Origin: Candidatus Endomicrobium procryptotermitis
Lineage (GTDB): Bacteria; Elusimicrobiota; Endomicrobiia; Endomicrobiales; Endomicrobiaceae
NCBI GenBank assembly: GCA_031279415.1
Contig: JAITIP010000018.1
Span: forward strand, 62,001 to 126,000
Length of the DNA stretch: 64,000 nt
Direction: 5' to 3'
The notes below the pieces were generated by a model. The model saw nothing but the letters and a program-made list of their open reading frames with translations. It searched no databases and was not told the origin of the DNA. Of the stretch, positions 13,401 through 63,867 are shown piece after piece. A program made the position numbers and the translations under genes. Within the stretch, counting starts at the first letter, position 1; every line of letters begins with the position of its first letter.

Positions 13401-15676
13401 GACAAATACAATACGAGCATATAACTTTTGAGGAACTTTCCGAACTGAGCATAGAGCAGCTTCAAAACTATGCGTCCAAAAGCAATATAGATTTATCTGA
13501 AACAAATTTTTCCTATGAAGAAATAATTGAAAAGCTTGCAATTTTTGGATATACGAGAAAAGAATTTAATGAAATATTAAAAACCGTAAAAGCTCAAAAT
13601 TCAGTTCCTTTAAGAGCTTTGAATATAATGTTAAATATTTATCTCGAATCGGTTATGTCATTTGGGGAAGGCATGCCGGAAGAGCCTCTTGAAGCTATCA
13701 AACAGATGTCAAAATTTGGATTTGGAACTACGGAATTGTGGCTTAATCCCGTCAAGGAATGGTTAAAAAAACGATCGCCGATAACGCCTTTATACAAAGG
13801 GGTTCTTTCGGCAAAGCATTTGGATTTCTTTTCAAAAATGAATTTGACTATGGGTTTTATAATGTTTTTATACCCTGTACTAATAACACTTTTTGTGTTT
13901 AGCGCACTTTTTTCCCCGTTTTTTCCGTCGTTTTTTAGGCTTGATTTTATACCGCTTATGCTGTTTACGATGCTGGCGGTCAATACACCTATTGTAGTTG
14001 ACGTTGTCAAAAAAAATAAAGATCGCGGTTTGTTGATTATTTTGAAGGCTCTTTTTCCATCGATTATTGAAAGAGCCGTTTTTAACGTGAGTGTCATGCA
14101 CAATTCGGCCATAGGTGTGATAAACAGATTGCTTGGAAAAAAGGAAACATTTGGTGCAACCAAAGTTGGTAAGGGAGAAAAAACGGGTGGTATATGGAAA
14201 AATGTCAGAGAAAATTTGAAAATTCAATACAGGGCAGGATATCTGTATTTTTCAGCAGTTGCTTTAGTATTAGCACTTTCTTTATTTTTTTCTTTACCGC
14301 TTGATGCATTTATAATACTTGCAGGCTTGGGTTCTCTTAATATTCTTCAGGCTATGTTTGCTCCTGTTTATTTTGATTCTTCATTAAGAAAAATTCAGAT
14401 TTCTAAAAAATTCCGCGATAATATAGCTTATTACGGAAATTCTGCAAGAAAAACTGTTTATTGGCTTTCGAGAAGTGGAAATTTTTCTGCAAAAACCGCT
14501 TACAAATTGCTTGAGATGGGATTTAATAATGTCGTAATAGAAATGGATAATTCCAAAAAGGGGGATTTTTTGACAAGATATGACATTGATGGCATAAATT
14601 CTAACTTTTCCGTAAGCGCGGCTTTTGAAAATGGACTAATGCGGTTCTATATCAACTCTTCAAATGAAGATTTATTGGATATACAAAAAGATAAGGCTCT
14701 TAATGAAGCTTTAAAGCATATAAAGCTTCTTTTATACGGTTCGCCGTTTTTGTCGCCGGATAACAAGAGCTTAAAGATGGTAAAAAAACTATACTCTAAA
14801 AATAAACATTTTGGCAGCATAAAATTCAAAGACATAAATTTTGGCGACTCTATAATTTTGCGGGATTCTCAAGATGGCGTTTATAAAACCAAGCAATACA
14901 TTAACGCTTTGTCTGAAAGTAAAAAGAAAAATGTTATTGCAAAGTTTGAATTTAGAAATGTGGCTCAAATTAAACATTTGTTGAAACAATCATTTTATGA
15001 TGAAATATTTTTGTCTGTTGAAAATGATAAAATAAGCGCGGATGGAATAAAAAAATTGTCGCAAATATTTAAAAATAGGTACGTGGGGTTAAGCATAGGC
15101 GTTGATTTTAAACAGGATAACAAGGACAATGAAACTTTTATAAAAAATTTATCCAAAAATAAAAATATAAAAAATCTTATTATAAATTATACTGGTTTTA
15201 GTGGAGAACAAATACTTGAATCACTTAAAAGTTTTGCCGCCTTGAAACAAACAGGAATATTGGTGCGCATAGATGAGGAATTGTTGAAAGATGATATTTT
15301 TATATCGGAGATTTCGAAGCTAAAAGATTTGGGTATTTCTTTATTTCAACACAATTTTATTGATTTGGATTTCAAAAACGTGAATTATGGCAATTATTCC
15401 AATTTTATAGAAGATGCTTATGAAACAGACATAAGAAACGTGCTTTTCGACATAGAATCTTTTGCAAATATGGCGGCTAGGTCAAATCTGGCTGAACAAA
15501 TAAATTTGAGCCGATTGGATTTTGATGATATATTTAAGAAATCCACCGAGTCAGACACTGCGGCTATTCTTGAAAATATTCTGTCAGGTTCTATAACTGA
15601 AGAAGAAAATATAGATGCAGGCTCTTTGAATATTTACAACTCTAAATCTGTCAATGCAATTTTACAAGCCGCTTAA
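10496..15676 (+). CDS. giant membrane protein: TraB/ChaN-like region fused to a GT2 glycosyltransferase core
   Basis: 1726 residues. Signal-like N-terminus; residues about 55-470 resemble the TraB/ChaN/Tiki superfamily, with NIQDLHYNP at 61-69, VVYVEGAVGEIDTGW near 90-104 and a late ITGGFHTEG at 440-448. Two membrane segments lie near 600-655. Residues about 680-1010 look like a processive GT2 core: VVSDDG at 718, LLLDKDS near 850, GHNGFIRR at 923-930 and the ED pair of NVAEDF at 946-947. Further membrane segments lie near 1115-1175 and 1248-1292, then a roughly 430-residue C-terminal domain I cannot place. No Shine-Dalgarno is visible. A polysaccharide or glucan synthase-like role is inferred, not shown. 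Confidence 0.7.
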   Translation: MKKYIRVIMCFSIFLSLVCRDFAFSAAQIAYNAKIFLRIPANAGFISAKNVSSENKISIINIQDLHYNPSVQKNISLILENIERQISPDVVYVEGAVGEIDTGWISDIGDKKLRKDIAEHLILNSQLTGYEYYRAISAAGMRIYGIESEKVYNDNFLLLNKITDYKDETTRQLKIFNESVDEIAKSFHGERRLDGLIRKYREGKISQIKYYSVLIKLYDSFCGGKKLLNIAGYYPKNYLFNIKSFILNSREISLLSKNTIERQYADFYNSIKNMLPYKEYAVYSSLEDKTENTLRYMVRFELAKKYNELFSYLTCLKNLKSINPLELRNEEIRLIDCLRVAVSDNIVQQDMVFIKDFSIYFNSFFNNSITFDEYKYFSKNFKKFEELYSYYNDGGIPEFFVENFELFDKFISNNVLRNSVFAANILEVAQKQGYKNIVLITGGFHTEGLEEIFKDAGVNFIALTPNAILRKDTQDIYDYNVKKQSGVLNNAYALKPSSVLPEEERQRIILSAVESVRLLMETNPQDYNLKLEEIAGHIPILKGLKVKTGFLGDSKLVFTYIDGEIRDIRIKGSDGKKSSLKKRIRSLFPYFNADNYYKDIFKYMLFVTSFLFAFNINNTISAALMIFLFPPVAILILPAIQALMLSVYIFKDNKSVTESPNYALRIKEMPEGAEYLKQTTSIPVYDEPWRIIKRTLEYAIDARDRYNKKAGGEYANIVVSDDGLMVFAKNNIESALEEIERKNQNGQQLSTEEEEIYYRISFYKEHNIGVIARPKDKTKYSWGDFERRGLFKKASNLNHSLIINKILGELIENGMSYEDAVNSVKKQLINDKPIFENTYISGNIMVGDIILLLDKDSTVAPNAISATMTEFVIDTSLGYTQNQTVINNPDETRTSQMRAQEGDIIWKYVVPLDARNGFVKFLGHNGFIRRAALEKSGFWSEDNVAEDFAMIMKMITIKDDMTGRNYHGRQIQYEHITFEELSELSIEQLQNYASKSNIDLSETNFSYEEIIEKLAIFGYTRKEFNEILKTVKAQNSVPLRALNIMLNIYLESVMSFGEGMPEEPLEAIKQMSKFGFGTTELWLNPVKEWLKKRSPITPLYKGVLSAKHLDFFSKMNLTMGFIMFLYPVLITLFVFSALFSPFFPSFFRLDFIPLMLFTMLAVNTPIVVDVVKKNKDRGLLIILKALFPSIIERAVFNVSVMHNSAIGVINRLLGKKETFGATKVGKGEKTGGIWKNVRENLKIQYRAGYLYFSAVALVLALSLFFSLPLDAFIILAGLGSLNILQAMFAPVYFDSSLRKIQISKKFRDNIAYYGNSARKTVYWLSRSGNFSAKTAYKLLEMGFNNVVIEMDNSKKGDFLTRYDIDGINSNFSVSAAFENGLMRFYINSSNEDLLDIQKDKALNEALKHIKLLLYGSPFLSPDNKSLKMVKKLYSKNKHFGSIKFKDINFGDSIILRDSQDGVYKTKQYINALSESKKKNVIAKFEFRNVAQIKHLLKQSFYDEIFLSVENDKISADGIKKLSQIFKNRYVGLSIGVDFKQDNKDNETFIKNLSKNKNIKNLIINYTGFSGEQILESLKSFAALKQTGILVRIDEELLKDDIFISEISKLKDLGISLFQHNFIDLDFKNVNYGNYSNFIEDAYETDIRNVLFDIESFANMAARSNLAEQINLSRLDFDDIFKKSTESDTAAILENILSGSITEEENIDAGSLNIYNSKSVNAILQAA

Positions 15677-16025: not shown

Positions 16026-16844
16026 TTAATTTTCTTTAAAAAAGTGTCCCAGAACTTTACCAATAATTTCTAACTTGTTTGTTTTTATTTCTTTATCCTT
16101 GGAATTGGCATGTAATGCCAAAATGCTTCCTTTCTGTACAGAAGTTTTAGCTATTGTATAGCCCATATCGGTTTTAATGAACATGTTTTTATCATTTAGA
16201 GGACTTATCATCTTTTTTATTACACAAAAAGAGCTTTTTGGGATTTCTGGAAGCATATTGTCGCTTTCATATCTTATGACAAAGGTGGCATCCGAAAACA
16301 TGCTTATCGGAAGTTCCATAAAATCTTCGAATTCATTTTCCGCATACTTAAAATATCCGTCTTTTTTCCCATCGGTGATATTCAAAATTGGAACATTTAT
16401 GATTTTAGTCGGTATCGGCATACTGTAAGTGGCTTCGAAACTCTCTATTATATTGATGCCGGCTTCTTTTATTGCGCTGATAATTCTGTCGATTTGCAGT
16501 CTACTCAAAGGATGTTTGCCTTCAAGCCAGTTCTCAACCGAATTTACCGGCAGCTTTAATTTTTCTGCAAGCCACTTTGGAGTTTTTTCCAAATCCTTTA
16601 AGGCAAGCAGCGCATTCTTTCTTACGACTGCTTCATTGCTTTTTGAATCATAAATTAACTGTTCTTCACTGACATTAAAAAATTTTGCCAGTTTTGAAAC
16701 TTCGTAAACATTTGGAGTCCTCTTCTCATTTTCCCAGTAATTTACCGTGACCCGAGAGATATTAAGCTCTTTTGCAAGTTCATCTTGTGTGAGATGTCGT
16801 TCCCTTCTCATTAGTTCAAGCTTTTTTGAGTTAAATTTTTTCAT
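16026..16844 (-). CDS. XRE-family repressor with S24/LexA-like C-terminal domain lacking the catalytic serine
   Basis: About 272 residues in CI/LexA-like layout. An N-terminal XRE helix-turn-helix (LTQDELAKELNISRVTVNYW), then a second HTH-like segment (TPKWLAEKLKLPVNSVENW), then an S24-type fold. The position of the usual GDSM motif reads SDNMLPEI, so the catalytic Ser appears replaced by Asn and self-cleavage is unlikely. The ATG at 16844 is preferred because GGAG stands six bases before it; an in-frame ATG at 16856 lies upstream. A large inverted repeat just upstream (16863-16898) is a likely autoregulatory operator. The target regulon is unknown. Confidence 0.82.
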   Translation of the reverse strand: MKKFNSKKLELMRRERHLTQDELAKELNISRVTVNYWENEKRTPNVYEVSKLAKFFNVSEEQLIYDSKSNEAVVRKNALLALKDLEKTPKWLAEKLKLPVNSVENWLEGKHPLSRLQIDRIISAIKEAGINIIESFEATYSMPIPTKIINVPILNITDGKKDGYFKYAENEFEDFMELPISMFSDATFVIRYESDNMLPEIPKSSFCVIKKMISPLNDKNMFIKTDMGYTIAKTSVQKGSILALHANSKDKEIKTNKLEIIGKVLGHFFKEN

Positions 16845-16862
16845 ATTCTGCTCCATTGACTT

Positions 16863-33397: not shown

Positions 33398-33573
33398 TTA
33401 TGGCTGTATTCAGATTAACAAAAAAAGCAAACAAATTGTTTGAAAGTTTGTGCTTGGAGTAAAAAAGACAGATTTTAAATTTGATTAATTCCAGTTTTTC
33501 TATAAACGAAAGGACATTAGTTTACATATAAAAACTCTTTGGACTCAGTGCCAAAAGAATGTTTAAAAATAAG

Positions 33574-33645
33574 CTCCGACGGCTGGACTCGAACCAGCAA
33601 CCGATCGGTTAACAGCCGATTGCTCCACCATTGAGCTACGTCGGA
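33574..33645 (-). tRNA. tRNA-Asn (GTT)
   Basis: Full cloverleaf on the minus strand: acceptor TCCGACG/CGTCGGA, D arm GCTC/GAGC, anticodon stem ATCGG/CCGAT around CTGTTAA (anticodon GTT), T arm GCTGG/CCAGC with TTCGAGT. CCA is not encoded. 72 bases. Confidence 0.95.
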
Positions 33646-50891: not shown

Positions 50892-52214
50892 GTGAAGAAA
50901 ATAAAACAGGCCGGCGTTTTGGGTATAGGAAAAAGTGGTGTTGCGGCTGCAAATCTCGCAGTGAAACTTGGTTATAAAGTTTTTGCCAGCGATAGCGGCA
51001 AAGAAAGAGAAATAAAAAATCTCGATAAAAAAGTTATGAAAGAGTTTGGTGGGCATACTGATAAAATTCTTACTTCTGATTTTGTCATAAAAAGTCCGGG
51101 AATATATCCCGACATTGAAATCATTAAAAAAATTAAAAGAAATAAAATTCCAATTATCAGCGAACTTGAGTTCTCTTTAAAAAATTCAAAATATAAAAAG
51201 CTCATCGCGGTAACGGGAACTAACGGAAAAACGACGACTACGGATTTGCTTTCAAAAATAATAAAAGCAGCTTATAAAGATTCAATAGTGACGGGAAACA
51301 TAGGATTTCCTCTTTCTGATAAAGCTTTGCACACGGCAAAAAATACTTTTATTACGATGGAGCTTTCAAGTTATCAGCTTGAAGATTCTCCTTCTTTCTG
51401 TCCAAATATTTCTATTCTGCTTAACATTACCCCCGATCATCTTGAACATCACAAAACCATGCATAAATATATAGCTGCAAAAAAAAACATATTTAAAAAT
51501 CAGCGGGCAGGAGATTTTTCAGTTATAAATTTTGATGATAAAATATGCAGAAAAATATCTTCCGAAATAAATGCCAAGAAAGTTTTTTTTGCTAAAAGAC
51601 CCTTAAGAAATGGCGTGTATTTTGATAAAGGTTCGATAGTGATAAATATAGGGAAGAAAAAGTCGGTTATAAAACCAAAAATTCAAATACCAGGGACGCA
51701 TAATGTCGAAAATATTCTTGCTGCTGTCGCTGCGTCCTACTGCGTCGGAATGAAATCCAGCATAATAGAAAAAGTCATATCTTCGTATAAAGGCGTCAAA
51801 CACAGGATAGAATTTGTACGCAGAATAAATGGTGTAGATTATTATAATGATTCAAAATCCACAAATGTGGACTCTACCAGAGTCGCTTTGGAAGCTTTTG
51901 AAGGAAACATTTTTCTTATTTTGGGAGGCATAGATAAAGGCGCTCCCTACATTCCTTTGAAAAATTTAATAAAAAAAAGAGTGAAAAAAATCTATCTTAT
52001 AGGTGAAGCCGCAGAAAAAATAAAAAAAGAGTTGGCGGGAGCTTCTTTTTTAGATTGCGGAAATATCGAAAATGCTGTTAAAGAGATTTTTAAAACTGCC
52101 GAAAGCGGAGATACGGTTCTTTTGTCTCCGGCATGTGCTTCTTTTGACCAGTTCAAAAATTTCGAAGAGCGCGGTAAATTTTTTAAAAAAATGGTTAAAT
52201 CAATTAGTGAGTAA
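50892..52214 (+). CDS. murD: UDP-MurNAc-L-Ala:D-Glu ligase
   Basis: 440 residues, ATP site GTNGKTTTT at 109-117, DHLEHH and YYNDSKSTN as in MurD. Adds D-Glu. GTG start. It is the last plus-strand dcw gene before the tail-gene insertion, and its 3' end faces the tail-fibre gene end-to-end with 41 bp between. Confidence 0.96.
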   Translation: MKKIKQAGVLGIGKSGVAAANLAVKLGYKVFASDSGKEREIKNLDKKVMKEFGGHTDKILTSDFVIKSPGIYPDIEIIKKIKRNKIPIISELEFSLKNSKYKKLIAVTGTNGKTTTTDLLSKIIKAAYKDSIVTGNIGFPLSDKALHTAKNTFITMELSSYQLEDSPSFCPNISILLNITPDHLEHHKTMHKYIAAKKNIFKNQRAGDFSVINFDDKICRKISSEINAKKVFFAKRPLRNGVYFDKGSIVINIGKKKSVIKPKIQIPGTHNVENILAAVAASYCVGMKSSIIEKVISSYKGVKHRIEFVRRINGVDYYNDSKSTNVDSTRVALEAFEGNIFLILGGIDKGAPYIPLKNLIKKRVKKIYLIGEAAEKIKKELAGASFLDCGNIENAVKEIFKTAESGDTVLLSPACASFDQFKNFEERGKFFKKMVKSISE

Positions 52215-52255
52215 TTAATATTTTTTTGCATAATTTCCATTTTTGATACTATTTC

Positions 52256-53839
52256 TTATTCTTCGCTGAAATATCCTATTTGATATATATTATCCGTTCC
52301 TCCTCTGTGATTGTTCATTCTCAAAGTGAATGTCTGCTGATTGGCTTTTATATACATATCCGCTACAACAATATTTATATCGCTGTTGTCAATACATCCA
52401 GCCAAATCTTTCCATGCCAAAATCCGCCAAGTTATAGTCCAATAAAAATCCTCTACATTTGATTGAGCTATATACATATGCGGAATTCCGCTATCGCCGC
52501 CAAAGTTTACGGCGAATCTCACCCATGTCGGTTTTGTAAAAACTTTTGGAGCTGTTATGGTTACTGTCTCGGCGCTTGTAAATCCGTATAAGTGTGTTTT
52601 GGAATAAACAAACTTCGGAACGCTGTACTGTGCAAGTTTTGTTTTGGCTGCGGTTGTAATATTTGATAAATCTAATTTGGCAAGAAATGTACTAAATAGC
52701 GATTGCGCTATTGTTGAAATAGTTGTTATGTTATCCAAATTCAAGCTCGCTTTGTTTGCTAATCCGTCAATAAACACATTATAATTTGCCTGCGAAGCGG
52801 GAACTACAGTATTTGATACAACCATCATTAACGGAAACTGAATATGACGAGGTTGAAATCTGTCTCCCGTATTGACTACTCTTGAAGTGTCGAAAGTGGC
52901 TCTATTACTTCTGTTTACCGAACTTGACGCTGTTACAGAACTACCGTATAAAGCAGTGTCGCCTTGTCTGAATGCTCCCTCACCCACTGCTACTAATCCC
53001 TGTGGACCTCCAAGCGTGCAGTCAAAATGGCCAGTGATATTTACAATTTGAGCTCTGCCGTATTGTCCTATATTGCCTATGGTTAAACACTGCATTATTG
53101 CAACTCTATCATCAAGACGTGGCATTTTAAATTTTTGATTTACGCTGTCAACACCGACAAAGCCGACATTGCCGGAATTATTGTTGTAAGCAGTTTCCCA
53201 TTGCGTATAAGTTCCCGTGGGTATTATGTTTGTCAGAAGATAATTATCGTAAAAATTTGGAAACATTGAACGCGTATATTCCCCGCCGTATAATCTTAAC
53301 AAGCCTTCCGGAGTGTCCGTTCTTGCTAAAGATTTAATTTCTCCTATATAAGACAGAGGAGCCACAGCGGTAACAAACCCGATAAACTGCCATGAATAAA
53401 TCGGCGTCGGAGTGTTTGGAGTATCTACCAGCTGCCACATTCCTGAATTAAATAAGTTTGTCACCCATGTTTTATTCCATACTTCTGAGGCTGTATGAGT
53501 TACACCGTTGATTACATATGTGGATTGCGAAATATCGTTTACGTCTAATGTCCATGTTCCGCCTGCACCAAAAATATCCTGACAGGCATAAAGCGTAAGT
53601 TCTTCCTGCGTCGGTTGTGCCGAATCAAAGTTTTTAGCGGTTAATGAGCCTCCCGCCGCCGCATTAATTTTTTGATTAATTGCGGTCAAGACTTGATTTA
53701 ATATATTTTCATCCGTCGTCAAACCCGCGTCAATTATAATATTTTTAAGCTCCGCGGTAATCTGGTTTAATTCCTGCGCTTTCCAAACAGTAGATGAATT
53801 CGGCAGTACTCTTGCATTTTGTTTTTGTCCTATATCCAT
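52256..53839 (-). CDS. phage tail fibre protein with tail-collar-like domain
   Basis: 527 residues. The middle (GEIKSLARTDTPEGLLRLYG, then QKFKMPRLDDR) is typical of the short tail-collar domain that ends many phage fibres; the N-terminal third is helical and probably attaches to the tail, and the C-terminal part is probably the receptor-binding tip. Last gene of the module. Host-range determinant by inference. Confidence 0.82.
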   Translation of the reverse strand: MDIGQKQNARVLPNSSTVWKAQELNQITAELKNIIIDAGLTTDENILNQVLTAINQKINAAAGGSLTAKNFDSAQPTQEELTLYACQDIFGAGGTWTLDVNDISQSTYVINGVTHTASEVWNKTWVTNLFNSGMWQLVDTPNTPTPIYSWQFIGFVTAVAPLSYIGEIKSLARTDTPEGLLRLYGGEYTRSMFPNFYDNYLLTNIIPTGTYTQWETAYNNNSGNVGFVGVDSVNQKFKMPRLDDRVAIMQCLTIGNIGQYGRAQIVNITGHFDCTLGGPQGLVAVGEGAFRQGDTALYGSSVTASSSVNRSNRATFDTSRVVNTGDRFQPRHIQFPLMMVVSNTVVPASQANYNVFIDGLANKASLNLDNITTISTIAQSLFSTFLAKLDLSNITTAAKTKLAQYSVPKFVYSKTHLYGFTSAETVTITAPKVFTKPTWVRFAVNFGGDSGIPHMYIAQSNVEDFYWTITWRILAWKDLAGCIDNSDINIVVADMYIKANQQTFTLRMNNHRGGTDNIYQIGYFSEE

Positions 53840-53877
53840 TTTTTACCTCTTATTTTTGACAGATACCAAGTCAAAAT

Positions 53878-54603
53878 TTAATTGATTTTTTGTTCCAACA
53901 ATTCTATTTGTTTTTTCAGCAATTCGTTTTGTTCTCTCAAAAGTTCTTTTTCGCTTTGTTTGTGTTCTTTTACTTTTGTTTTTTTTGGCTCTTTGCCTGC
54001 TCTATTTATCTTTGGAAAATTAAAATCAAATTTGTATCCTATGTTAAAGTTGAAAGTTTGGTAATTTATGCGGTTTTCTTGTACAAGAATATTCTCCAAG
54101 TATAGTTTATACATTTCATTATCAGAAGCATATAAAAACTCAAAAATAAAATTTTTATATTCATAGCCTATCCCGAGTCCGTAATGTAAACCAAGATTTT
54201 CTTCTTCTATATCTTCATCAAAATCCATAATTTTACTAACGCCGATTTGTAAGATGGAGTATATATCTTTATATATACTCACTTTAGGCGAAATATAAAA
54301 TGCTTGCAGCGTAAATCCTAAGCTGTCATAATCTTTAACGTTTCTTTTTATCTGCTGAGCATAGCCGATTCCAAACTTAAAAATTGAATTTATTTTCCTG
54401 TAATATTCCAAATAAAAAACAGTCCCAATGTTTATATTTGAGAAATTTGAATTTTTTTGTTCATTAAAAAGAACAAAAGTTCTTTCTTGAGAAAATATTG
54501 AATACGGCGTTATGCCAAATTTCAAGATGAGCGAATTCTGTTTATCGGCAAATACGCTTTGAGCTAAAAACAAAAATAAACCTAAAAATAATATTTTTTT
54601 CAT
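53878..54603 (-). CDS. signal-peptide beta-barrel-like cargo protein with C-terminal coiled coil
   Basis: 241 residues. Signal peptide MKKILFLGLFLFLAQSVFA, then about 180 residues with barrel-type alternation (GFTLQAFYISPKVSIY, then GIGYEYKNFIFEFLY), then a charged coiled coil ending KKQIELLEQKIN. Not a structural tail family. Placed between hub and fibre genes, it is best read as a cargo (moron) gene, perhaps altering the host surface. Confidence 0.6.
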   Translation of the reverse strand: MKKILFLGLFLFLAQSVFADKQNSLILKFGITPYSIFSQERTFVLFNEQKNSNFSNINIGTVFYLEYYRKINSIFKFGIGYAQQIKRNVKDYDSLGFTLQAFYISPKVSIYKDIYSILQIGVSKIMDFDEDIEEENLGLHYGLGIGYEYKNFIFEFLYASDNEMYKLYLENILVQENRINYQTFNFNIGYKFDFNFPKINRAGKEPKKTKVKEHKQSEKELLREQNELLKKQIELLEQKIN

Positions 54604-54615
54604 TTTTAATCCTCA

Positions 54616-56965
54616 CTATTTTCGGACATCAAAAGTTTCCTGCGGCTGATATGCGAATTCTTTTGCCTGTTCAACGGGTATGTCAGTATCCGCTGTGTAA
54701 TCGATTAAATCAAGAGTTGTAATTCTTTTATTAAAATCCGTTTTGATGCCGACAACTTTACATTTCATATAATAAGTTCCTGTTTCTTTCCATTTTGTCA
54801 AATCTGTAAACGTCCGTTTTGCAAACAAATTATTATTGTGAAGCATTCTAACATAATCGCCGAGTTCAAGTTCCAAATCAATAATTATGTCAATAGTCAA
54901 CCTCAACCGTAGTTTTGAAAGTTCTGCATAAATTGTCGGAGCAATAGCATAAGCGAGGTCAACATTATCCGCGGGAAGCAGCTGCGATCCTGATATTTCA
55001 TAAGTCCTTTCGCCATATTTTTCTTTATTTGTCGGGTGCGGCTCATTTTGCTGGTCGCTGTCAATAACTTTTATATAGTTGCCGTAAGTAACTACAACGC
55101 GCGTTTTCAGCCTTGCAATATCGCTTTTTGCACCCGACATTGAAATAATCTCATTATCGGTTAGAGCTTTATATTCCGATGTTTGCTGCCTATTTCTAAA
55201 AAAGAATTTATCGTCATAGTCAAAACGATTTCATATATCGCAAGAGAAGCTAACTCTTCTAATGCCTGTAAAATTGACATATTTGTTAGATTACAGATGC
55301 TGAGTGGGATGTTTTGTTGTTGATAATAAGACGCATTCATATTAGACAAATTCAAATCATTGCCTTTTGTCGCATTATTTTTTATAACAACTTCAATATA
55401 GTTTGAAAAATTATTTATATTACTTCCAATATCAAGTTGTATCCAACTGCTCCACTGTGCATTTGGGTTATCTTTATAACGTGCTTCTATAGATAATTGC
55501 GGCATTCCTCCTATAACAGATACATTTGCCTTGAAGTTTGTCCACTGTATAAAATCAGATAATCCTGAATTTGATAAGTTAAATCTTATACCAGACTGGC
55601 TATACACAATACCCGCGTTGTCTATGAGTTGTATATTCTGAATAATCAGTTTTCCTGTTCTATACTGCCATATATATAATCCATTCAATGTTCCGTCTGA
55701 TATCGATATAGAATAGATTAGCGAACTATTTTTATAAATATAAAAAATATTGTTCTGCATACTAAAATTAAAATTTGCAGATCGACCGCCACCTGAAGTT
55801 TGAACTAAATTTCCATCTACAACTATCGCAAAACCATCAGAATAATAAAAATTATGATTGTCATAAATCAATATTGTGTGATTTGCAAATATAAATCTTA
55901 TATAACCAAATGTAGCTATATCTTCGTTGTATATATCCATATTGATACTGCAGAATAAAGACCAATTGCCTGAAGAATAGATTTCAAAATTTCTTGATGC
56001 ACCGCCACCAGATTTTTTTGGTCTATAACTATATAATTATTACCATCTACACTATTTGCATAAGTAATACTATTGTGTGTATTTGTAAAATTGAAACGAG
56101 TTGAGACATTTTGAATAAAATTATTCAGATATAAAATTACATTATTTTGAAAAACAACAGGATCAACAATCCTATGCGATTCGGCTACTCCTGCGCTCGT
56201 CAACAATTCATTCACAAGTGTATCAATCGTTATGCCTTTTTTCCAATAAATATAATCCGCACATATATTTTCATTTGATAGCAGAGCGGATTTCAACTCT
56301 ATAATTGCGCCGTTATTGTAATCGTTAAGCTGTGAAACTGTATAATCTGTTTTTTCGGTTAATTCAACGGCGTCTGAAAGGCTTGTTCCTTTTAACACTC
56401 TTTGAATTCTGCCGACTGCGGCATTTGCGGTTTTGCAATGAGTGGTATCTTGCTCGGTCAATTGTTCATTTTTAATTTTTGTTGATACATTTTCCGCTGA
56501 TATTGTTTTTAGCCAATCAAGGCGATTTAATACTCGCAATTCCACAAGCACTTCATCTTGTCTGTAATTTGGCAATTCCGTCAAATATCCAGTAAAACAT
56601 TTGACATAATCGTTTAATGTCGGACTTCCTATATAGTATTCAAGTTTTGAGCCGTAAATAATGTAAGGCTGGGGAAATAATCCGTCTTCTTTATCCTGCC
56701 AGAAGCGGTTATTCTCATTATATAGCGTCAAAGCCAAATTGCCGACTTTCCAAACATTTGCGGTATCATTATCAAGCTGCTGGGTAATTGAAACATTTGT
56801 GCCTTTATGGTTTATTGCGTCGGTAATGTCAACAGGAGTTGTTTCAATAATGTAAGAAGAAGATGCAGTATTCCATTTACGACGGTAAAGTAAAAGTTTA
56901 TGATGGAGTTCCGATATATTATTATGCTTAAGAAGTGATTTTATTGTAGGGCTAATTTGCCGCAT
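54616..56965 (-). pseudogene. tail hub / receptor-complex protein, broken by two homopolymer frameshifts
   Basis: Three consecutive frames join into one protein of about 783 residues. Frame 1 runs from 56965 and leaves the sensible frame at a run of seven bases (56013-56019); frame 2 continues (KKSGGGASRNFEIYSS, carbohydrate-binding-like) to a run of six at 55198-55203; frame 3 continues (QQTSEYKALTDNEI) to 54616. The N-terminal 300 residues resemble tail hub or baseplate proteins (VKCFTGYLTELPNYRQDEVLV). Either pseudogenised or affected by sequencing errors in homopolymers. Confidence 0.6.
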
Positions 56966-57227
56966 TTTCCTGTGCCTCTAATTTTAAATTGAAGTCAAGC
57001 AGCCCGCTCCACCTACTTATTTTGTAATCCAAATCCTGCCGTCTTATAAATACTTCATAGACATCCCTGTCTTCAAAATCCGCAAAAGGGATTATCGTTA
57101 TAAAGCCGTCCCTCCTGATAAAATTTTTTAACAGCTTGTATTGCTCTTTTGACATATTTTTGATGTTGATATTTGCCGACCATTTGCTGAAATCCGTCCA
57201 AGTTATAAGCCTGCCGTTATAAGTTTC
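56952..57227 (-). pseudogene. C-terminal part of the distal-tail protein in shifted frame
   Basis: The frame open from 57227 to 56952 (TYNGRLITWTDFSKWS, then FADFEDRDVYEVFI) reads as the natural continuation of the preceding protein, with a +1 shift needed near 57217-57236. An ATG at 57155 has no ribosome binding site, so independent expression is doubtful. It overlaps the hub gene start by 14 bases. Confidence 0.5.
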
Positions 57228-57732
57228 TCAAACTGCCGTCTTTTGCGGTATAATTTACGTCGGTATTAGTAGTCGCCTGTAAATCAAAAATTTTTTCTAA
57301 AACTCTTAACTGTCCGATTTTTATGCCTTCATTGTTAAAAGTGCTTTGTATGTTAAATATAATTTTTGAAGTCGTTATTTTTTGAGGCAGGGTTATTTTT
57401 ACTTCGCCGTTTAAATTGTCAGTCAGCGTATAGGCTAAAACTTCATTTTCAGAGTTGTCAATATATTTTATTTGCATTGTCTGCACATTGCAGTTTTGCA
57501 AAATAATCGTGTCAATATTTCTTGCTAAAAGTTCCCCAAACTTATCTTTAAACCAACAAGAAAAATTTAACGACGTCTGTGCATACATAAATGCCAAATC
57601 GTCGTTATAACATTCGAAATCGCAGAGTTTTAAAAAATCAAGAGGCTGTTCGCTTGATGTCTCAAACAAGCATTTTGTATTTAAATAATTGTATGAATAT
57701 ATTTGTATGGGATTATCTATAGCTTTTGTCAT
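57217..57732 (-). CDS. distal tail (Dit-like) protein, probably truncated by a frameshift
   Basis: 171 residues, starting in a 4-base overlap with the tape measure stop (ATGA). Beta-rich, located directly after the tape measure gene where distal tail proteins lie. It ends KDGSLRNL, and the following frame continues as if part of the same chain. Assignment mainly by gene order. Confidence 0.55.
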   Translation of the reverse strand: MTKAIDNPIQIYSYNYLNTKCLFETSSEQPLDFLKLCDFECYNDDLAFMYAQTSLNFSCWFKDKFGELLARNIDTIILQNCNVQTMQIKYIDNSENEVLAYTLTDNLNGEVKITLPQKITTSKIIFNIQSTFNNEGIKIGQLRVLEKIFDLQATTNTDVNYTAKDGSLRNL

Positions 57733-59198
57733 AATGCCACTCCCGACTGCTTTGCACCAACATTATACGTTACTCCCGCAAACTCTAAAGCTTCAAGAGT
57801 TCCGCGTCTTATGGCTTGCGTCAAACTGCTTAAGCCGCCGATACTTGAAGTAATTTCTATATTCTGGTTTATGGTAATTGGCGCATTCCCGTTAGATTCA
57901 ATTCCGGCGCCGTTTGCCAAATTCCACAGATTAGCCTGCTGATTTTTGTTTAAAATCATTTCGCCGCTGTTTACACGGGCAATCATATTGTCGCCGTTCC
58001 AAGAGTTTCCGCCTATAATGCCGCCTTGCTCAAATGCTCCCGCCATATTTGCAATAGCCATAAGCCCAGCCAATACTATTGCCGCCGTCACTACTTTTGT
58101 ATATGGGTTTGGATCTTTTGCGCCGGCATCTGTTGCGCCTACAATTGCGTTAAGAACTGATTTCCCAAGCGCTATGGTTTTTTCCACCGCGAAAGCTGCA
58201 AGCTCTTTTGCAATTATATCGGTAAGTGCTTTGATAATGGAATCTTTGAGAGTTCTCCAAATATTCGTTACCGCCATTCCAAACTTTCCCCATGTGTCAA
58301 TTTGACCGTCAACTAAATTTTGTATTGTTTGGGATATTGAGGAAACAAGCTCGTTATATATTCCCATAAAAACTTCTTTCCAATTTGTAGTTTGATTTAT
58401 TATCTCTTCAAATGCAAGCGCCCATCCGCTGACAAATTCATAATTTCCAAGCTCGTTTAGCTCTTTTTGATTTTCATATTCCCGCTGCCGTAAAGCATAA
58501 TACTCTGCACTTCCTTTTTCAGAGGCTGCAAGCCTCTCTTTAATTTGCTGCTGCTCTAACATCAAAGTATCTTGTTTCTGTTTATTGTTGAATTCATCAA
58601 ATTGAGCTTTTTCATAAGAAATACGGGCATCAATATCTTTTTTTCTGTCTTCGTTTATTTGTTTTTCCACATCAAGTAAAGCCTGTTTGAGTTCAATTTC
58701 CTTAAGAGTATTTGTTTTAACATTCGCCAATTCCTGCTGAACCAATTGTAAAAAATTAATTTTTATGCCCGATACTATTGCAGCGATTGTATATTTTGAC
58801 ATATCTAAATTGTTTAATAAAAGCGTAATGGCAACTCCCAATGCCAATATGGCGGTTACTGTTAATCCTATGGGACCGGTAATAATAGTAAAAGCGGCGG
58901 CAACTGCACTAATTCCTAAGGCTAGTTTTGAAATAATGGGTAAAATCTGCTCTTCTATTACATTTTTTAACTCTGAAAAATTTGGAAGGCTTGCAGCTTT
59001 ATTTAAGCTGTCTAAACTGCCTCTAGATTGATTTAACCCTGCACTAAATGCAGAAACTGCCGCGACTATACTAGAAAAAGCATTGCTGACTTTTTTAATA
59101 TCTTCGCTTGTTTTTGCGATTTCTTGGAGTTTATTTCTGAATTTCTCTAATGCTTTAGCATCTGTTTCTATTTTAACAGACAAATTTTCTTCAGCCAT
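57729..59198 (-). CDS. tail tape measure protein
   Basis: 489 residues from the preferred ATG (three codons after an upstream ATG, chosen for AGGTGA spacing). Long helical start (KFRNKLQEIAKTSEDIKK), hydrophobic segments near 95-130 and 330-360, and the Gly-rich C-terminus FEQGGIIGGNSWNGDNMIAR typical of lambda-gpH-like tape measures. Sets tail length; by the usual 1.5 angstrom per residue rule this is a short tail of roughly 70 nm. Confidence 0.85.
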   Translation of the reverse strand: MAEENLSVKIETDAKALEKFRNKLQEIAKTSEDIKKVSNAFSSIVAAVSAFSAGLNQSRGSLDSLNKAASLPNFSELKNVIEEQILPIISKLALGISAVAAAFTIITGPIGLTVTAILALGVAITLLLNNLDMSKYTIAAIVSGIKINFLQLVQQELANVKTNTLKEIELKQALLDVEKQINEDRKKDIDARISYEKAQFDEFNNKQKQDTLMLEQQQIKERLAASEKGSAEYYALRQREYENQKELNELGNYEFVSGWALAFEEIINQTTNWKEVFMGIYNELVSSISQTIQNLVDGQIDTWGKFGMAVTNIWRTLKDSIIKALTDIIAKELAAFAVEKTIALGKSVLNAIVGATDAGAKDPNPYTKVVTAAIVLAGLMAIANMAGAFEQGGIIGGNSWNGDNMIARVNSGEMILNKNQQANLWNLANGAGIESNGNAPITINQNIEITSSIGGLSSLTQAIRRGTLEALEFAGVTYNVGAKQSGVAL

Positions 59199-59409
59199 TT
59201 TTGTCACCTTTTATTTTGTGGAAAATTTTACATATCTGTTGAATTTACTTTTTTATGGATATTAGCTCTTGAGGAAAAGACTCAATATTTAAAATTTTTG
59301 TATATTTTTCATAGGTTTTCCTTTCAAATTGCCGCTTCTCATGGCATTATCGGGCAACATTTAAAAATATATCCTTATATTTAGTATCATCGTATTCTAT
59401 GAAATTTTT

Positions 59410-59808
59410 TTAATATTCAATAATTCCCGACGCGCTTACATATGCAAAATAAATGTTTGTTGCTTCATCTCGACTGAATACTCTTCCATCTTTATAAATT
59501 ACGCATCTTATTGTACCTGGACTTTTGCTCAGTGCCGATATAGCTGCGTAAAAAAAATCGTAATCTCTTTTAAGCTTAATCCTAAAACTTTTAGAATAAG
59601 GCAATGATACATTGCTGTAATGTTCTGAATCACCGTCAGCATTATTCAGGCTGATATCGGCTCTGGCGGCCGTCCCCGTAACTTCATATTCTATAATATA
59701 CTCCTTTTTTCTGTCGCAGGAAGAAAACAAAACGGTGATAAATACAAAAGCAAATACGGCTAATAAAAATTTCCTTGTTTTTATTCTGTTTTGCATAACA
59801 AAGGTCAT
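59410..59808 (-). CDS. MmpS-like lipoprotein cargo gene
   Basis: 132 residues. Signal peptide with lipobox FSSC, then a small beta-sandwich-like region (YEVTGTAARADISLN, NVSLPYSKSF) resembling the MmpS/Ig-like accessory fold. Starts 12 bp after the tail chaperone. Phage-borne lipoproteins of other phages can block superinfection; that role here is a guess. ATG choice is uncertain: GGAG touches the first ATG directly and lies 12 bases from the second (codon 5). Confidence 0.6.
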   Translation of the reverse strand: MTFVMQNRIKTRKFLLAVFAFVFITVLFSSCDRKKEYIIEYEVTGTAARADISLNNADGDSEHYSNVSLPYSKSFRIKLKRDYDFFYAAISALSKSPGTIRCVIYKDGRVFSRDEATNIYFAYVSASGIIEY

Positions 59809-59819
59809 CTCCTTTAACT

Positions 59820-60460
59820 TTATTTATTATCTTTTTTTCCGTGCTTTTTATGCAAAGCCTGCATTAATATAAGAAGTTCTTCGGGCTGAGGTTCTTTTTG
59901 TTCGGCTTGCGGATCTTTGCCGATAATATCTTCTATGGAAAGAGCGCGTTTCCCTTTGCCTCTGTTGACGTTTGCTATAGCTGCCGTAATAAGAGCGGCA
60001 TTGGCTAATTCTCGGCGATCATTTTGATATTTTCTTCCGCATAAAACTTGAAACAGTTTAGGTGTTAAATTCCAAAACTGTTTTTCCGTCAAATTTAAAT
60101 CATAAAGAGCAATGCCCCAGAAATCTGATATTTCAGGGGCATTTATGCCAAAGGGGAGGGGGAACCTTCTTTTTTATTTTCCGGCATGGCGTCTTTTATA
60201 AGTTCTGTTATCGCCGCGCCTATTGCGGATATATTTGACAAGTCAATAATATCGGCGGTTTCGTCTAAAGTGATATTTTCACATGCACTTTTTAAACACG
60301 CCCATAAAAGAACTAAAGTGTCAGTACCGCTGAACTCGCCGTTCATTTTAAAGAAATTTTTGCCCGTTTCTTTTTCAAAAAGCATTATTGTTTTAAAATT
60401 AAACTTTAACGTTCTCTCTTTATCCAAAGTAATGGTTTTTATTTTTACAAGTTCGCTCAT
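59820..60460 (-). CDS. tail assembly chaperone, long (G-T type) frameshift product
   Basis: Predicted 213-residue fusion made by a -1 frameshift at 60149-60155. The downstream frame is open from the slip site (GINAPEISDFWGIALYDL, then TEKQFWNLTPKLFQVL) to 59820 and lacks its own good start (a TTG at 60092 without ribosome binding site). In lambda-like phages the long form coats the tape measure during tail assembly. Confidence 0.8.
60112..60155 (-). promoter_or_regulatory. programmed -1 ribosomal frameshift signal
   Basis: On the minus strand: slippery heptamer C CCT TTG (60155-60149, X XXY YYZ in zero frame), a 6-base spacer containing the zero-frame TAA stop, then a hairpin with 7-bp ATGCCCC/GGGGCAT, a T-T mismatch and 5-bp GAAAT/ATTTC stem with a 5-base loop (60142-60112). 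All elements and spacing match known tail-chaperone frameshift sites. Confidence 0.85.
60143..60460 (-). CDS. tail assembly chaperone, short (G type) product
   Basis: 105-residue zero-frame product ending at the stop inside the frameshift signal. KIKTITLDKERTLKFNFK and MLFEKETGKNFF are typical of phage tail chaperone/gpG-like and TAC proteins. AGGAG is nine bases before the ATG. Confidence 0.82.
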   Translation of the reverse strand: MSELVKIKTITLDKERTLKFNFKTIMLFEKETGKNFFKMNGEFSGTDTLVLLWACLKSACENITLDETADIIDLSNISAIGAAITELIKDAMPENKKEGSPSPLA

Positions 60461-60463
60461 AAT

Positions 60464-60910
60464 TTATGCTCCTGTAGGAATTGTTGCTGGGGTAAATGTG
60501 GTCGTCCCAGTGATTTTTAATGTGGCAGTAAAAGGAATTATTTCGCCTTCAGCTAAATCTCCCACTCTTTTGCAGCTTGAACAAGTCGCCTTTCCTGTAA
60601 GCTTTGCAGCAGAACTTTCGCTGCCGACAGTAACTATTTCAATGACCCATTCAAAAACATTACCACTTTGAAAAAAACTGTATATCGCATCTTGCCCTGA
60701 GTCAACGGACTTATAATTTCCTTCAAGAGAAATTTCTCCGGGATCGGTAGCGCCGGAAATAAACTCTTTATTTCTGCCTGAACTGTCTAATGTGCTTACG
60801 TCTATCTGGTCTGTTACTGCTTCCGGTACGGTTATTGTCTTTAAATCTCCGACATAACTGTAATTTGTATCGCCAACTATGCGTACACCAAAATTACTCC
60901 CGCGAGACAT
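60464..60910 (-). CDS. major tail tube protein
   Basis: 148 residues, beta-rich: ITVPEAVTDQIDVSTLDSSG, DPGEISLEGNYKS, then IPFTATLKITGTTTFTPA near the end, the pattern of TP901-1/lambda-type major tail proteins. Lies just before the chaperone genes as expected. Confidence 0.83.
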   Translation of the reverse strand: MSRGSNFGVRIVGDTNYSYVGDLKTITVPEAVTDQIDVSTLDSSGRNKEFISGATDPGEISLEGNYKSVDSGQDAIYSFFQSGNVFEWVIEIVTVGSESSAAKLTGKATCSSCKRVGDLAEGEIIPFTATLKITGTTTFTPATIPTGA

Positions 60911-60945
60911 TCTTGCCGAACAGTCATCTTTAATCCTTCCTGTGA

Positions 60946-61329
60946 TTAGTTTTTTGCAAATACTTCAAAATCTAAATTTATACGTTTAATTTCCGTCGTT
61001 TCTTCATATATTTCCGCATATCCGGTTTTTGTTATTATTCGTATGTCCGTTTCGGAAGCAGTCCATTTTGACATTTCCTGTTCTAAAACGACGGCAATAT
61101 TATTTGCCTGCGCATAGTCTTCAAATACTACGCTGATTTGGATTTGTTTGCGTCCCTGTATGGAATCGCCTTCAAGAGTATATTCAGAAGAATCTGAAAC
61201 TATGCGGAAAGCCAAATAAGGTTTTTGTGCTTCGCCAGGAGCAGCAAGAGGATAAATGCGGTTTGAGACTAAATCAGTTATTTCCATGTCCTGCAATAAA
61301 TAATTATAAAGCTTAATTCCCAAAGACAT
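60946..61329 (-). CDS. tail completion/terminator-type protein (DUF3168-like)
   Basis: 127 residues: LYNYLLQDMEITDLVSNRIYP, PYLAFRIVSD, then QIQISVVFEDYAQANNIAVV, the DUF3168-type minor tail protein that caps the tail tube. GAGG precedes the ATG. First gene of the module on this strand. Confidence 0.8.
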   Translation of the reverse strand: MSLGIKLYNYLLQDMEITDLVSNRIYPLAAPGEAQKPYLAFRIVSDSSEYTLEGDSIQGRKQIQISVVFEDYAQANNIAVVLEQEMSKWTASETDIRIITKTGYAEIYEETTEIKRINLDFEVFAKN

Positions 61330-61694
61330 TTTATGCCTCTTTTTTATTTAGACATATTGTGCAATCTCGAAGAAAAATAATTTATGCGGGTATTTTGAAC
61401 TAGTGTTATTTACATTATATTACAAAAATATCCTGAATATTATAAGAATTTATGTGTTTTAATGTCAAATTTATCTTTGTAAATATCACAATATATTGAA
61501 CATTTTGCCATTTAAGAAGCTGGACGAATAATAAAAAGGCATCTGATAGTTTAAAGCTTTGTGATGTTTTTATTGTGTTATACAAAAAAGCTAATTTTTA
61601 AGTCTTTCTTGCATTTTTTCACCATATATTGCTAACATTTTAGCAATAATTTTTGAAATTTTAATTTTTTGAATGCTATTATCAAAAGGACAAA
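61330..61694. other. divergent intergenic region between tail module and ftsW
   Basis: 365 bp, AT-rich, with no gene. It must carry promoters for both directions. An 8-bp inverted repeat ATTGCTAA-CATT-TTAGCAAT (61628-61647) lies 50 bp before ftsW. AAAGGAC stands before the ftsW ATG. No integrase-type attachment repeat is apparent when compared by eye with the murD end. Confidence 0.45.
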
Positions 61695-62792
61695 ATGTTC
61701 AACGTAGATTTTAAAAAATATGATTATTCTTTAATGTTTATCATTGCTATCGCTGTGGTTTTCGGCGCAATGATGGTATTTTCTTCGAGCGTTATCATGG
61801 CAGACGTAAGATGGTCAAGCCCTTATATGTTTTTTTTAAAACAGATGATTTGGGTAATAGTAGGTTTTATTTCCATGATGATAACAACTTTTTTTATCGA
61901 CTATAAATTCTATCGTAAATATTCCAAAATTTTGTATATAATCGCTTTAACGGCGGTTATAGCGGTTTTAATATTTGGCGTGACAAGAAGCGGTGCAAGA
62001 AGATGGTTTAGCTTAGGTTTTGCTACGATTCAACCTTCTGAAATAGCTAAAATTGCAATGGTAATAATTATCGCGGAATTTATAGAAAGAAAGAAGGATT
62101 TAATAGGAGAATGGAAAGGATTAATAGCGCCTATAGTCTTTTTGCTTTTTATTATAATCCCGATAGCCTTAGAACCTGATTTGGGCGCTCCTGTATTAAT
62201 TGCCGGAGTTTGTTTTGCAATGTTATTTTGTGCCGGAATAAAATTGCAGACCGTATTTGTAATGGCCGGTGCGGGCATCCTTTTAATGACGGCAGAAATT
62301 TTAAGAAAACCGTACAGACTTATAAGAATGCGCGATTATTTTGATTCCATAATTAATATTGACGCTTCGTCTTATCAGGTAAAACAATCGCTGTACGCTT
62401 TGGGTTCTGGCGGTTTTTTCGGTAAAGGACTTGGCAAAAGTGAAATGAAACTCATGTATCTTCCCGAAGCACATACGGATTTTATTTTTCCGATAGTAGG
62501 AGAAGAACTCGGATTTATCGGCGCTGCGGGTGTTATATCTTTTTATATATATATTTTTTTTAAAGGTATTGAAATAAGCAAAAACGCTCCGGATAAATTT
62601 ACAGAATATCTTGCTCTGGGAATAACGTTTTTGATAGTGTTTCAGGCTTTGATAAATTTATCAGTTGCTACGGGCATATTTCCCGCGAAAGGGCTGTCTT
62701 TGCCTTTTATATCTTTCGGTGGAACTTCGCTGATAATAAATATGGCTGCCGCAGGAATACTTATAAATTTATCACAATATAAAAGGTATTGA
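61695..62792 (+). CDS. ftsW: septal peptidoglycan polymerase FtsW (SEDS family)
   Basis: 365 residues, about ten helices. Characteristic segments: GVTRSGARRWFSLGFATIQP, the QVKQSLYALGSGGFFGKGLG segment and the PEAHTDFIFPIVGEELGFIG motif. Polymerises glycan strands with the septal PBP. Separated from murD only by the tail-gene insertion. Confidence 0.95.
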   Translation: MFNVDFKKYDYSLMFIIAIAVVFGAMMVFSSSVIMADVRWSSPYMFFLKQMIWVIVGFISMMITTFFIDYKFYRKYSKILYIIALTAVIAVLIFGVTRSGARRWFSLGFATIQPSEIAKIAMVIIIAEFIERKKDLIGEWKGLIAPIVFLLFIIIPIALEPDLGAPVLIAGVCFAMLFCAGIKLQTVFVMAGAGILLMTAEILRKPYRLIRMRDYFDSIINIDASSYQVKQSLYALGSGGFFGKGLGKSEMKLMYLPEAHTDFIFPIVGEELGFIGAAGVISFYIYIFFKGIEISKNAPDKFTEYLALGITFLIVFQALINLSVATGIFPAKGLSLPFISFGGTSLIINMAAAGILINLSQYKRY

Positions 62793-62793
62793 A

Positions 62794-63867
62794 ATGAAAA
62801 ATAAAAATATTATTATAGCCGCAAGTGGCACGGGAGGACACATATATCCAGGTATAGCTTTGGCGCAGGAACTGAAAGAAAAAAAATATAATCCAGTTTT
62901 TTTTGTGAGCAATAACGAAACTTCTGGAGAGATAATAAAAAACAGCGGTTTTGACTATGTATCATTTAATCTTTTTGGCATGCCAAGAAAAATTTCTTTT
63001 TCTTTTGCTGTCTTTTTTATCAAATTGATTTTTGCTTTTTTAAAAGCTTTAAAGAATATGTTTAAACTGAATCCCATTGCGGTTATAGGTGTGGGAGGTT
63101 ATATTTCAGCGCCTGCCGTCATTGCCGCAAAAATATACGGAAAGAAAACTTTTATACATGAGCAAAATACGATTCCGGGAATAGCAAATAAGTTTTTAAA
63201 CAGATTTGCCGGCAAAACGTTTATAAGCTTCAGAGACAGTGAAAAATATTTTAAAAATAAAAAAAGTATTATTTTTACCGGTTACCCCGTGAGAAAAGAG
63301 ATATTGGCAGTTGAAAGAGAGTCCTGCTGTAACGCTCTTAATTTAGACAAAAATATGTTTACTCTTATGATTTTTGGCGGAAGTCTCGGCGCCTTAAAAC
63401 TTAACAAAATAGCTTTTAAAGCCATAAAAATAATTTCAGAAAAAATGGATATTCAGGTTATACATATAACCGGGAAAAAGGGCTTTGAAGAGATAAATCA
63501 GAAAATCAGAAAATCGGCAAATTACCGCGTTTTTGATTATATGCATAATATAGCCCAAGCTTATGCCGCTTCCGATGCGGTTATATGCAGAGCTGGAGCT
63601 GGAACAGTTTTTGAATTGACATTTCTTAAAAAGCCTGCAATTTTGGTTCCATATCCATACGCTGCGGACAATCATCAGTATTATAATGCAAAAGAAGCAG
63701 CAAGAAACGGCATGATGACGATTATTGAGGAAAAAGATTTAACCGCCGAAAATCTTGCCGGTACAGTTGAAAATATAAAAAGGAGGTTGAAGCCAAATAT
63801 AAAAAATTCCGTATCTAAATTTCCTCAAGAAATAATGGCGGAAGAGATAATAAATGGCATAAGTTAA
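62794..63867 (+). CDS. murG: UDP-GlcNAc transferase making lipid II
   Basis: 357 residues, GT28 glycosyltransferase: GTGGHIYPGIALA (phosphate loop), IGVGGYISAPAVIAA, HEQNTIPG and CRAGAGTVFELTFLKKPAI. Adds GlcNAc to lipid I. Starts two bases after the ftsW stop. Confidence 0.96.
   Translation: MKNKNIIIAASGTGGHIYPGIALAQELKEKKYNPVFFVSNNETSGEIIKNSGFDYVSFNLFGMPRKISFSFAVFFIKLIFAFLKALKNMFKLNPIAVIGVGGYISAPAVIAAKIYGKKTFIHEQNTIPGIANKFLNRFAGKTFISFRDSEKYFKNKKSIIFTGYPVRKEILAVERESCCNALNLDKNMFTLMIFGGSLGALKLNKIAFKAIKIISEKMDIQVIHITGKKGFEEINQKIRKSANYRVFDYMHNIAQAYAASDAVICRAGAGTVFELTFLKKPAILVPYPYAADNHQYYNAKEAARNGMMTIIEEKDLTAENLAGTVENIKRRLKPNIKNSVSKFPQEIMAEEIINGIS

Follow-up and report, generated by a model that had tools for sequence, protein, structure and literature searches.

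The source genome (G000; 2.01 Mb in 46 contigs) is placed by its MurD relatives in the Endomicrobiaceae (Elusimicrobiota), a family of bacteria from the guts of termites and other hosts (PMC11257099), and the named records closest to it are Endomicrobium and Endomicrobia MAGs. The analysed stretch (64,000 nucleotides, hereafter the window) lies inside a 266,684-bp contig and carries a dcw cluster with the order mraW-pbp-murE-murF-mraY-murD-[block]-ftsW-murG (names assigned from the sequences), in which the murD-ftsW gap extends over 9480 bp and is occupied by 12 minus-strand ORFs (52256-61329). The features of the locus are given below; G005 denotes a genome from another genus of the family.

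50892..52214, plus strand: murD, intact, left flank (ORF; full-length relatives 71-80% identical)
52215..52255: left junction, 41 bp from the murD stop to the fibre stop, with no terminator-like hairpin
52256..53839, minus strand: tail fibre (phrog_1858; 46% identical to the G005 fibre)
53878..54603, minus strand: small outer-membrane beta-barrel-like protein, OMP (PF13505, E=2e-4, below the gathering cut-off; same place in the G005 unit)
54616..55140, minus strand: tail hub/tip protein, C-terminal fragment, frame-broken (79% to part of an 894-aa G005 ORF)
55161..55940, minus strand: tail hub, middle fragment in another frame (homology to the G005 hub)
55916..56965, minus strand: tail hub, N-terminal fragment (79-81% identical to the G005 hub)
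56952..57216, minus strand: distal tail protein, out-of-frame remainder, 88 residues cut off (frame comparison with G005)
57217..57732, minus strand: distal tail protein, N-terminal 171 aa, 259 aa in G005 (86% identity to G005)
57729..59207, minus strand: tape measure protein (phrog_1272, E=1e-13, and phrog_24676; 46% to G005)
59410..59808, minus strand: small MmpS-like lipoprotein (PF05423, E=9e-4, below cut-off)
59820..60155, minus strand: T part of the tail chaperone, translated after a -1 frameshift (ORF listed at 59820-60092; PF06223, gpT, above cut-off)
60109..60148, minus strand: hairpin 3' of the slip site (-18.7 kcal/mol, z -3.9)
60143..60460, minus strand: tail chaperone G part (phrog_2115, E=1e-14)
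60149..60155, minus strand: slippery heptamer CCCTTTG, read in frame as C CCT TTG and lying one codon ahead of the G stop (context C CCT TTG GCA TAA)
60464..60910, minus strand: lambda-type tail tube protein (PF16461 above cut-off, phrog_158; 72% to G005)
60946..61329, minus strand: tail terminator/completion protein, first gene of the block (PF11367 above cut-off, phrog_347; 70% to G005)
61439..61468, minus strand: sigma70-like promoter TTGACA-18-TATAAT (12 of 12), directed toward the tail genes and placed directly before the terminator gene (pattern match)
61478..61608, minus strand: right-end remnant of a probable IS481-family insertion sequence, transposase 3' end (repeat comparison and translation)
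61695..62792, plus strand: ftsW, intact, right flank (ORF; 82-84% to congeners)
62794..63867, plus strand: murG, intact (ORF; 73-74% to congeners)

Read from the promoter end, the block comprises terminator, tube, chaperone G with its frameshifted T part, lipoprotein, tape measure, distal protein, hub, OMP and fibre, i.e. a complete set of non-contractile, siphophage-type tail genes from terminator to fibre, in which no sheath gene was recognised. The phage tail module and the intact flanking genes announced in a preliminary description of the locus are both there, as tail profiles match the minus-strand ORFs and the ORFs of murD, ftsW and murG are whole. The hub and distal proteins were assigned mainly by position and by homology to G005 (their profile matches are weak), and the structure prediction for a hub fragment was unusable (pLDDT 31). 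The lipoprotein is predicted, at low confidence (pLDDT 63), to fold as one N-terminal helix followed by beta strands. Virus collections returned only weak phage matches for terminator, tube and fibre, and mostly hits to a short C-terminal motif for the tape measure, while no close relatives of hub, distal protein or tube were found in IMG/VR; PADLOC gave no match.

The frameshift signal noted earlier is real, with an in-frame heptamer of the X XXY YYZ type, a short spacer, a downstream structure (the hairpin directly follows the heptamer, and none of 200 shuffles was as good) and a T frame that is open back to the slip site, all as expected of a programmed -1 G/GT frameshift. We stress that the heptamer by itself is no commoner than expected by chance, and that the case is made by its position, the frame and the hairpin. 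Promoter-like sites around 61200-61800 are likewise not clearly above chance (7, versus 4.1 +/- 2.3 in shuffles), and the perfect consensus match immediately precedes the opening gene of the tail block.

Among the block ORFs between murD and ftsW we found no genes for head, packaging, replication or integration, profile searches recovered no holin or endolysin, and the block holds no dedicated regulator (an XRE/S24 regulator at 16026-16856 lies 35 kb away).

The block is an insertion, since three genomes of the same genus (G001, G002 and G004) retain the empty site, with murD-ftsW gaps of 150, 509 and 141 bp, respectively, and no tail gene; this is the comparison that the preliminary description had called for. 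It sits in the gap in opposite orientation to its flanks. Across the family (the window block aside) the murD-ftsW spacing ranges from 6 to 509 bp where the genes are neighbours, and a breach of a strictly conserved arrangement is not supported: in G026 a single contig has murD and ftsW at a distance of 455 kb, in G006, G011 and G023 the two are found on different contigs (so that strict proof by distance comes from G026 only), and the genes read directly after murD at loci L125 and L126 are not ftsW. The cluster has thus come apart at this point repeatedly without the block being involved, its split by the block probably does little harm, and the earlier notion of a rewired essential cluster is overstated. 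The locus also cautions that Endomicrobiaceae tolerate a divided dcw cluster, which has come about on several occasions in the family. The proposed search of the edges revealed no target-site duplication (the longest common direct word has 10 bp and consists of A/T only), and neither direct nor inverted repeats exceeded 11 bp of AT-rich sequence. The gaps of the three congeners (L120 in G002, L121 in G001, L122 in G004) contain other repeat-like or palindromic sequences, among them GTGTTTTCGCTTTGCGAAAAC in G001 and G004, hence the murD-ftsW gap seems to collect inserts.

A misassembly, in which the tail block would have been falsely joined to murD and ftsW, is very improbable: the right edge does hold a repeated IS end, but the copies of this element differ mutually by 4-30%, the left junction has no repeat, the block is embedded in the long contig, and its third-position GC matches that of the host (0.31 versus 0.33). 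Because the codon use is also host-like, compositional foreignness of the block was rejected, and composition gives no date for its acquisition. The repeat at the right edge was considered as an attachment site or regulatory element and discarded as such, since its translation reveals the 3' end of a transposase; about nine remnants of this IS481-type element occur in the genome.

The window copy of the tail unit is recently dead. The distal protein (259 aa) and the hub (894 aa) are single ORFs in G005, whereas in the window the former is cut after 171 residues and the latter is spread over three frames, amounting to three frame breaks in the unit. Considering that dN/dS is about equally low before (0.077) and after (0.083) the break in the distal protein, purifying selection acted on both sides (dN/dS about 0.08), and function was therefore lost recently. 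Frame breaks of this kind are missing from the neighbouring dcw genes, which speaks against a sequence rich in errors throughout.

The same headless unit is carried by G005 at a different locus. Its left edge lies on a short contig (C188), where host PHP-TPR-OMP genes (a conserved order in relatives) are followed by lipoprotein, terminator, tube and chaperone; its right edge (contig C87) runs from tape measure through distal protein, hub, OMP and fibre into the host genes HydCBA. The lipoprotein thus differs in position between the two units. No head, packaging or integration genes adjoin either G005 edge (the stretch between C188 and C87 is unassembled). The two contigs likely represent one locus with an unassembled middle, because the unit parts searched for are single-copy (a hub fragment excepted) and the contents of the contigs are complementary; relatives do not show HydCBA adjoining PHP-TPR-OMP. 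In G005, part of the hub 3' end is repeated between OMP and fibre (L132:5310-5560), perhaps left by recombination at that end of the unit.

Between window and G005, the conserved tail proteins are 70-86% identical (distal protein and hub 79-86%, terminator and tube 70-72%), and the fibre reaches 46%. The host genes murD (67%), murG (57%) and ftsW (54%) are less alike than this tail core, whose divergence is smaller than expected from vertical descent, which indicates that the unit was acquired horizontally within Endomicrobiaceae. Its distribution is narrow, as the hub was found in 2 of 96 genomes of the class (and not in the other 94) and a clear relative of the lipoprotein in 2 of 37 genomes searched, only the two with the tail unit. 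The preliminary description contained neither the headless state of the unit and its occurrence in a second species, nor its decay, nor the IS481-type remnant at its right edge.

The main rival to a self-standing tail unit is a pair of independent prophage remnants, a reading that we hold to be a serious contender although the less probable one. A temperate siphophage near murD-ftsW would have lost its head, lysis and integration genes, perhaps by a deletion that the IS481-type element brought about at the right edge; a related phage would independently have left the G005 copy. The broken distal and hub genes fit this history, as do the differing divergence and location of the two copies and the terminal position of the fibre gene, which many prophages share; in the window, the IS remnant lies where the missing genes would be, and a deletion starting in it could have removed upstream phage genes. 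Defective lambda-like siphophage prophages also share with the block the gene order, the G/GT frameshift chaperone and the lambda-type tube. Yet two independent trimmings to the same first (terminator) and last (fibre) gene would be needed, with the lipoprotein and the OMP retained both times; hub and distal genes are also unbroken in G005, where the unit borders on host genes at its edges. Unlike in such prophages, no head, packaging, integration or lysis genes, or traces of the first three beside the tail module, were seen in the window or in G005, and the two units share their boundaries at unrelated loci. As the same headless set recurs at another place in a related species, it resembles a portable tail unit more than a scrap of phage left by chance.

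Elsewhere in the genome lies a distinct siphophage prophage (L135, G000:C23:13000-32999) with integrase, endolysin, capsid, portal and tape measure; prophages in this genome thus keep their heads when intact. A search for TerL (PF03354) in seven genomes found none and was uninformative, as it also missed a genome whose prophage bears portal and capsid. With a head-bearing prophage in the same genome and a headless unit mobile between species, the unit might be imagined as a satellite that supplies alternative tails to the heads of a helper prophage, the mirror image of capsid-forming satellites; we regard this as far-fetched, given that no integrase, packaging or regulatory genes were seen in the unit, that the co-resident prophage brings an unrelated tail of its own, and that the window copy is broken.

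We favour, with a probability of roughly 0.55, a headless, non-contractile tail unit that was horizontally acquired, resembles F-type tailocins and recently decayed in the window; the consensus promoter before its first gene is counted in its favour. Against it stand the missing lysis cassette and regulator, its presence in only two genomes and the unproven continuity of the G005 locus. The unit encodes everything from terminator to fibre plus two envelope proteins (the small lipoprotein and the OMP); genes for heads, packaging, integration and lysis are absent from it. Once acquired, it entered the murD-ftsW gap of the window lineage in opposite orientation. Intact copies would most likely form free tail-like particles that act in the F-type tailocin mode, the fibre setting the target, and particle release would require lysis from elsewhere; the lipoprotein, the OMP or both may shield the producer by masking its own receptor. 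Three frame breaks have recently put the window copy out of function.

Phage T5 Llp and phi80 Cor are receptor-masking lipoproteins. The small lipoprotein encoded among the tail genes could, by analogy of role, block the receptor of the fibre; its fold is a low-confidence prediction. That the unit as a whole is a transferable Endomicrobia device with its own promoter, an envelope-masking lipoprotein/OMP and lysis provided in trans, serving as weapon or tail donor, is a more speculative and rather doubtful extension.

F-type tailocins (F-pyocin, Listeria monocins and rhizoviticin; PMC10811719) resemble the block in their siphophage-type tail genes from terminator to fibre, in having no head genes, and in combining a conserved core with a divergent fibre, as do the window and G005 units. 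Rhizoviticin, a characterised F-type tailocin without head genes, has described lysis and regulatory regions and a DUF3168 terminator (PMC10811719), whereas the terminator of the block is of the Tail_completion_gp17 type. The tail is complete and head, packaging, replication and integration genes are absent (the middle of the G005 unit being unseen), but holin/endolysin, regulatory region, integrase remnant and LexA-type repressor are also lacking; because the block has neither lysis cassette nor regulator, we did not file it as a tailocin. It further differs in its lipoprotein and OMP and in the broken frames of the window copy. Our literature search found no tailocin papers for the phylum Elusimicrobiota. 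Were the unit a real headless weapon, tail-derived bacteriocins would extend to the Elusimicrobiota of insect guts, and modules for tails and self-protection could be passed on independently of those for lysis and regulation.

The edge IS draws attention to a family of transposons that apparently select sites beside sigma70 -35 boxes. In the IS481-type elements compared (61478-61608; L146-L154, L227-L246, L286), whose ends were set by pattern and whose terminus in relatives reads ..TACA, a sigma70-like -35 mostly follows the right end at a distance of about 5 bp, in front of tRNA-tuf, rpsO, tRNA-Lys and other genes. Nineteen of the 29 right ends scored have a promoter-like pair with the -35 three to seven bases past the end (p<0.05 each), the commonest gap being exactly 5; the pooled statistic (Fisher p about 6e-25) is indicative only, as some ends are near-copies within one genome. 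The window remnant has a gap of 9, outside the scored range, although its promoter match is perfect. The one complete copy, in G027 (L246; 1251 bp, terminal repeats 22/26) has a 5-bp target duplication, ATAAC, abutting TTGAAT as the -35, and best matches NF033577 (E=4e-55; 187 bits, below the curated cut-off of 224). These sequences suggest promoter-targeted insertion by an IS481-type rve transposase, which would become directly testable. Mutator-type elements (TnGBS, ISLre2 and ISKra4) are documented to insert in a set orientation upstream of sigmaA promoters, TnGBS at 15-17 bp from the -35 (PMC3942029), in contrast to the rve transposase and the spacing of mostly about 5 bp seen here; no report of such targeting by IS481 was found in the literature searched (the search was not exhaustive).

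Elsewhere in the window, a serine recombinase (PF00239, 32560-33231) near a tRNA-Asn on the opposite strand (33573-33645) may mark a small mobile element; like the XRE/S24 repressor, it lies too far from the tail block to be assigned to it. An ORF of 1726 aa (10496-15676), unusually large for its neighbourhood, has an apparent N-terminal signal and membrane segments.
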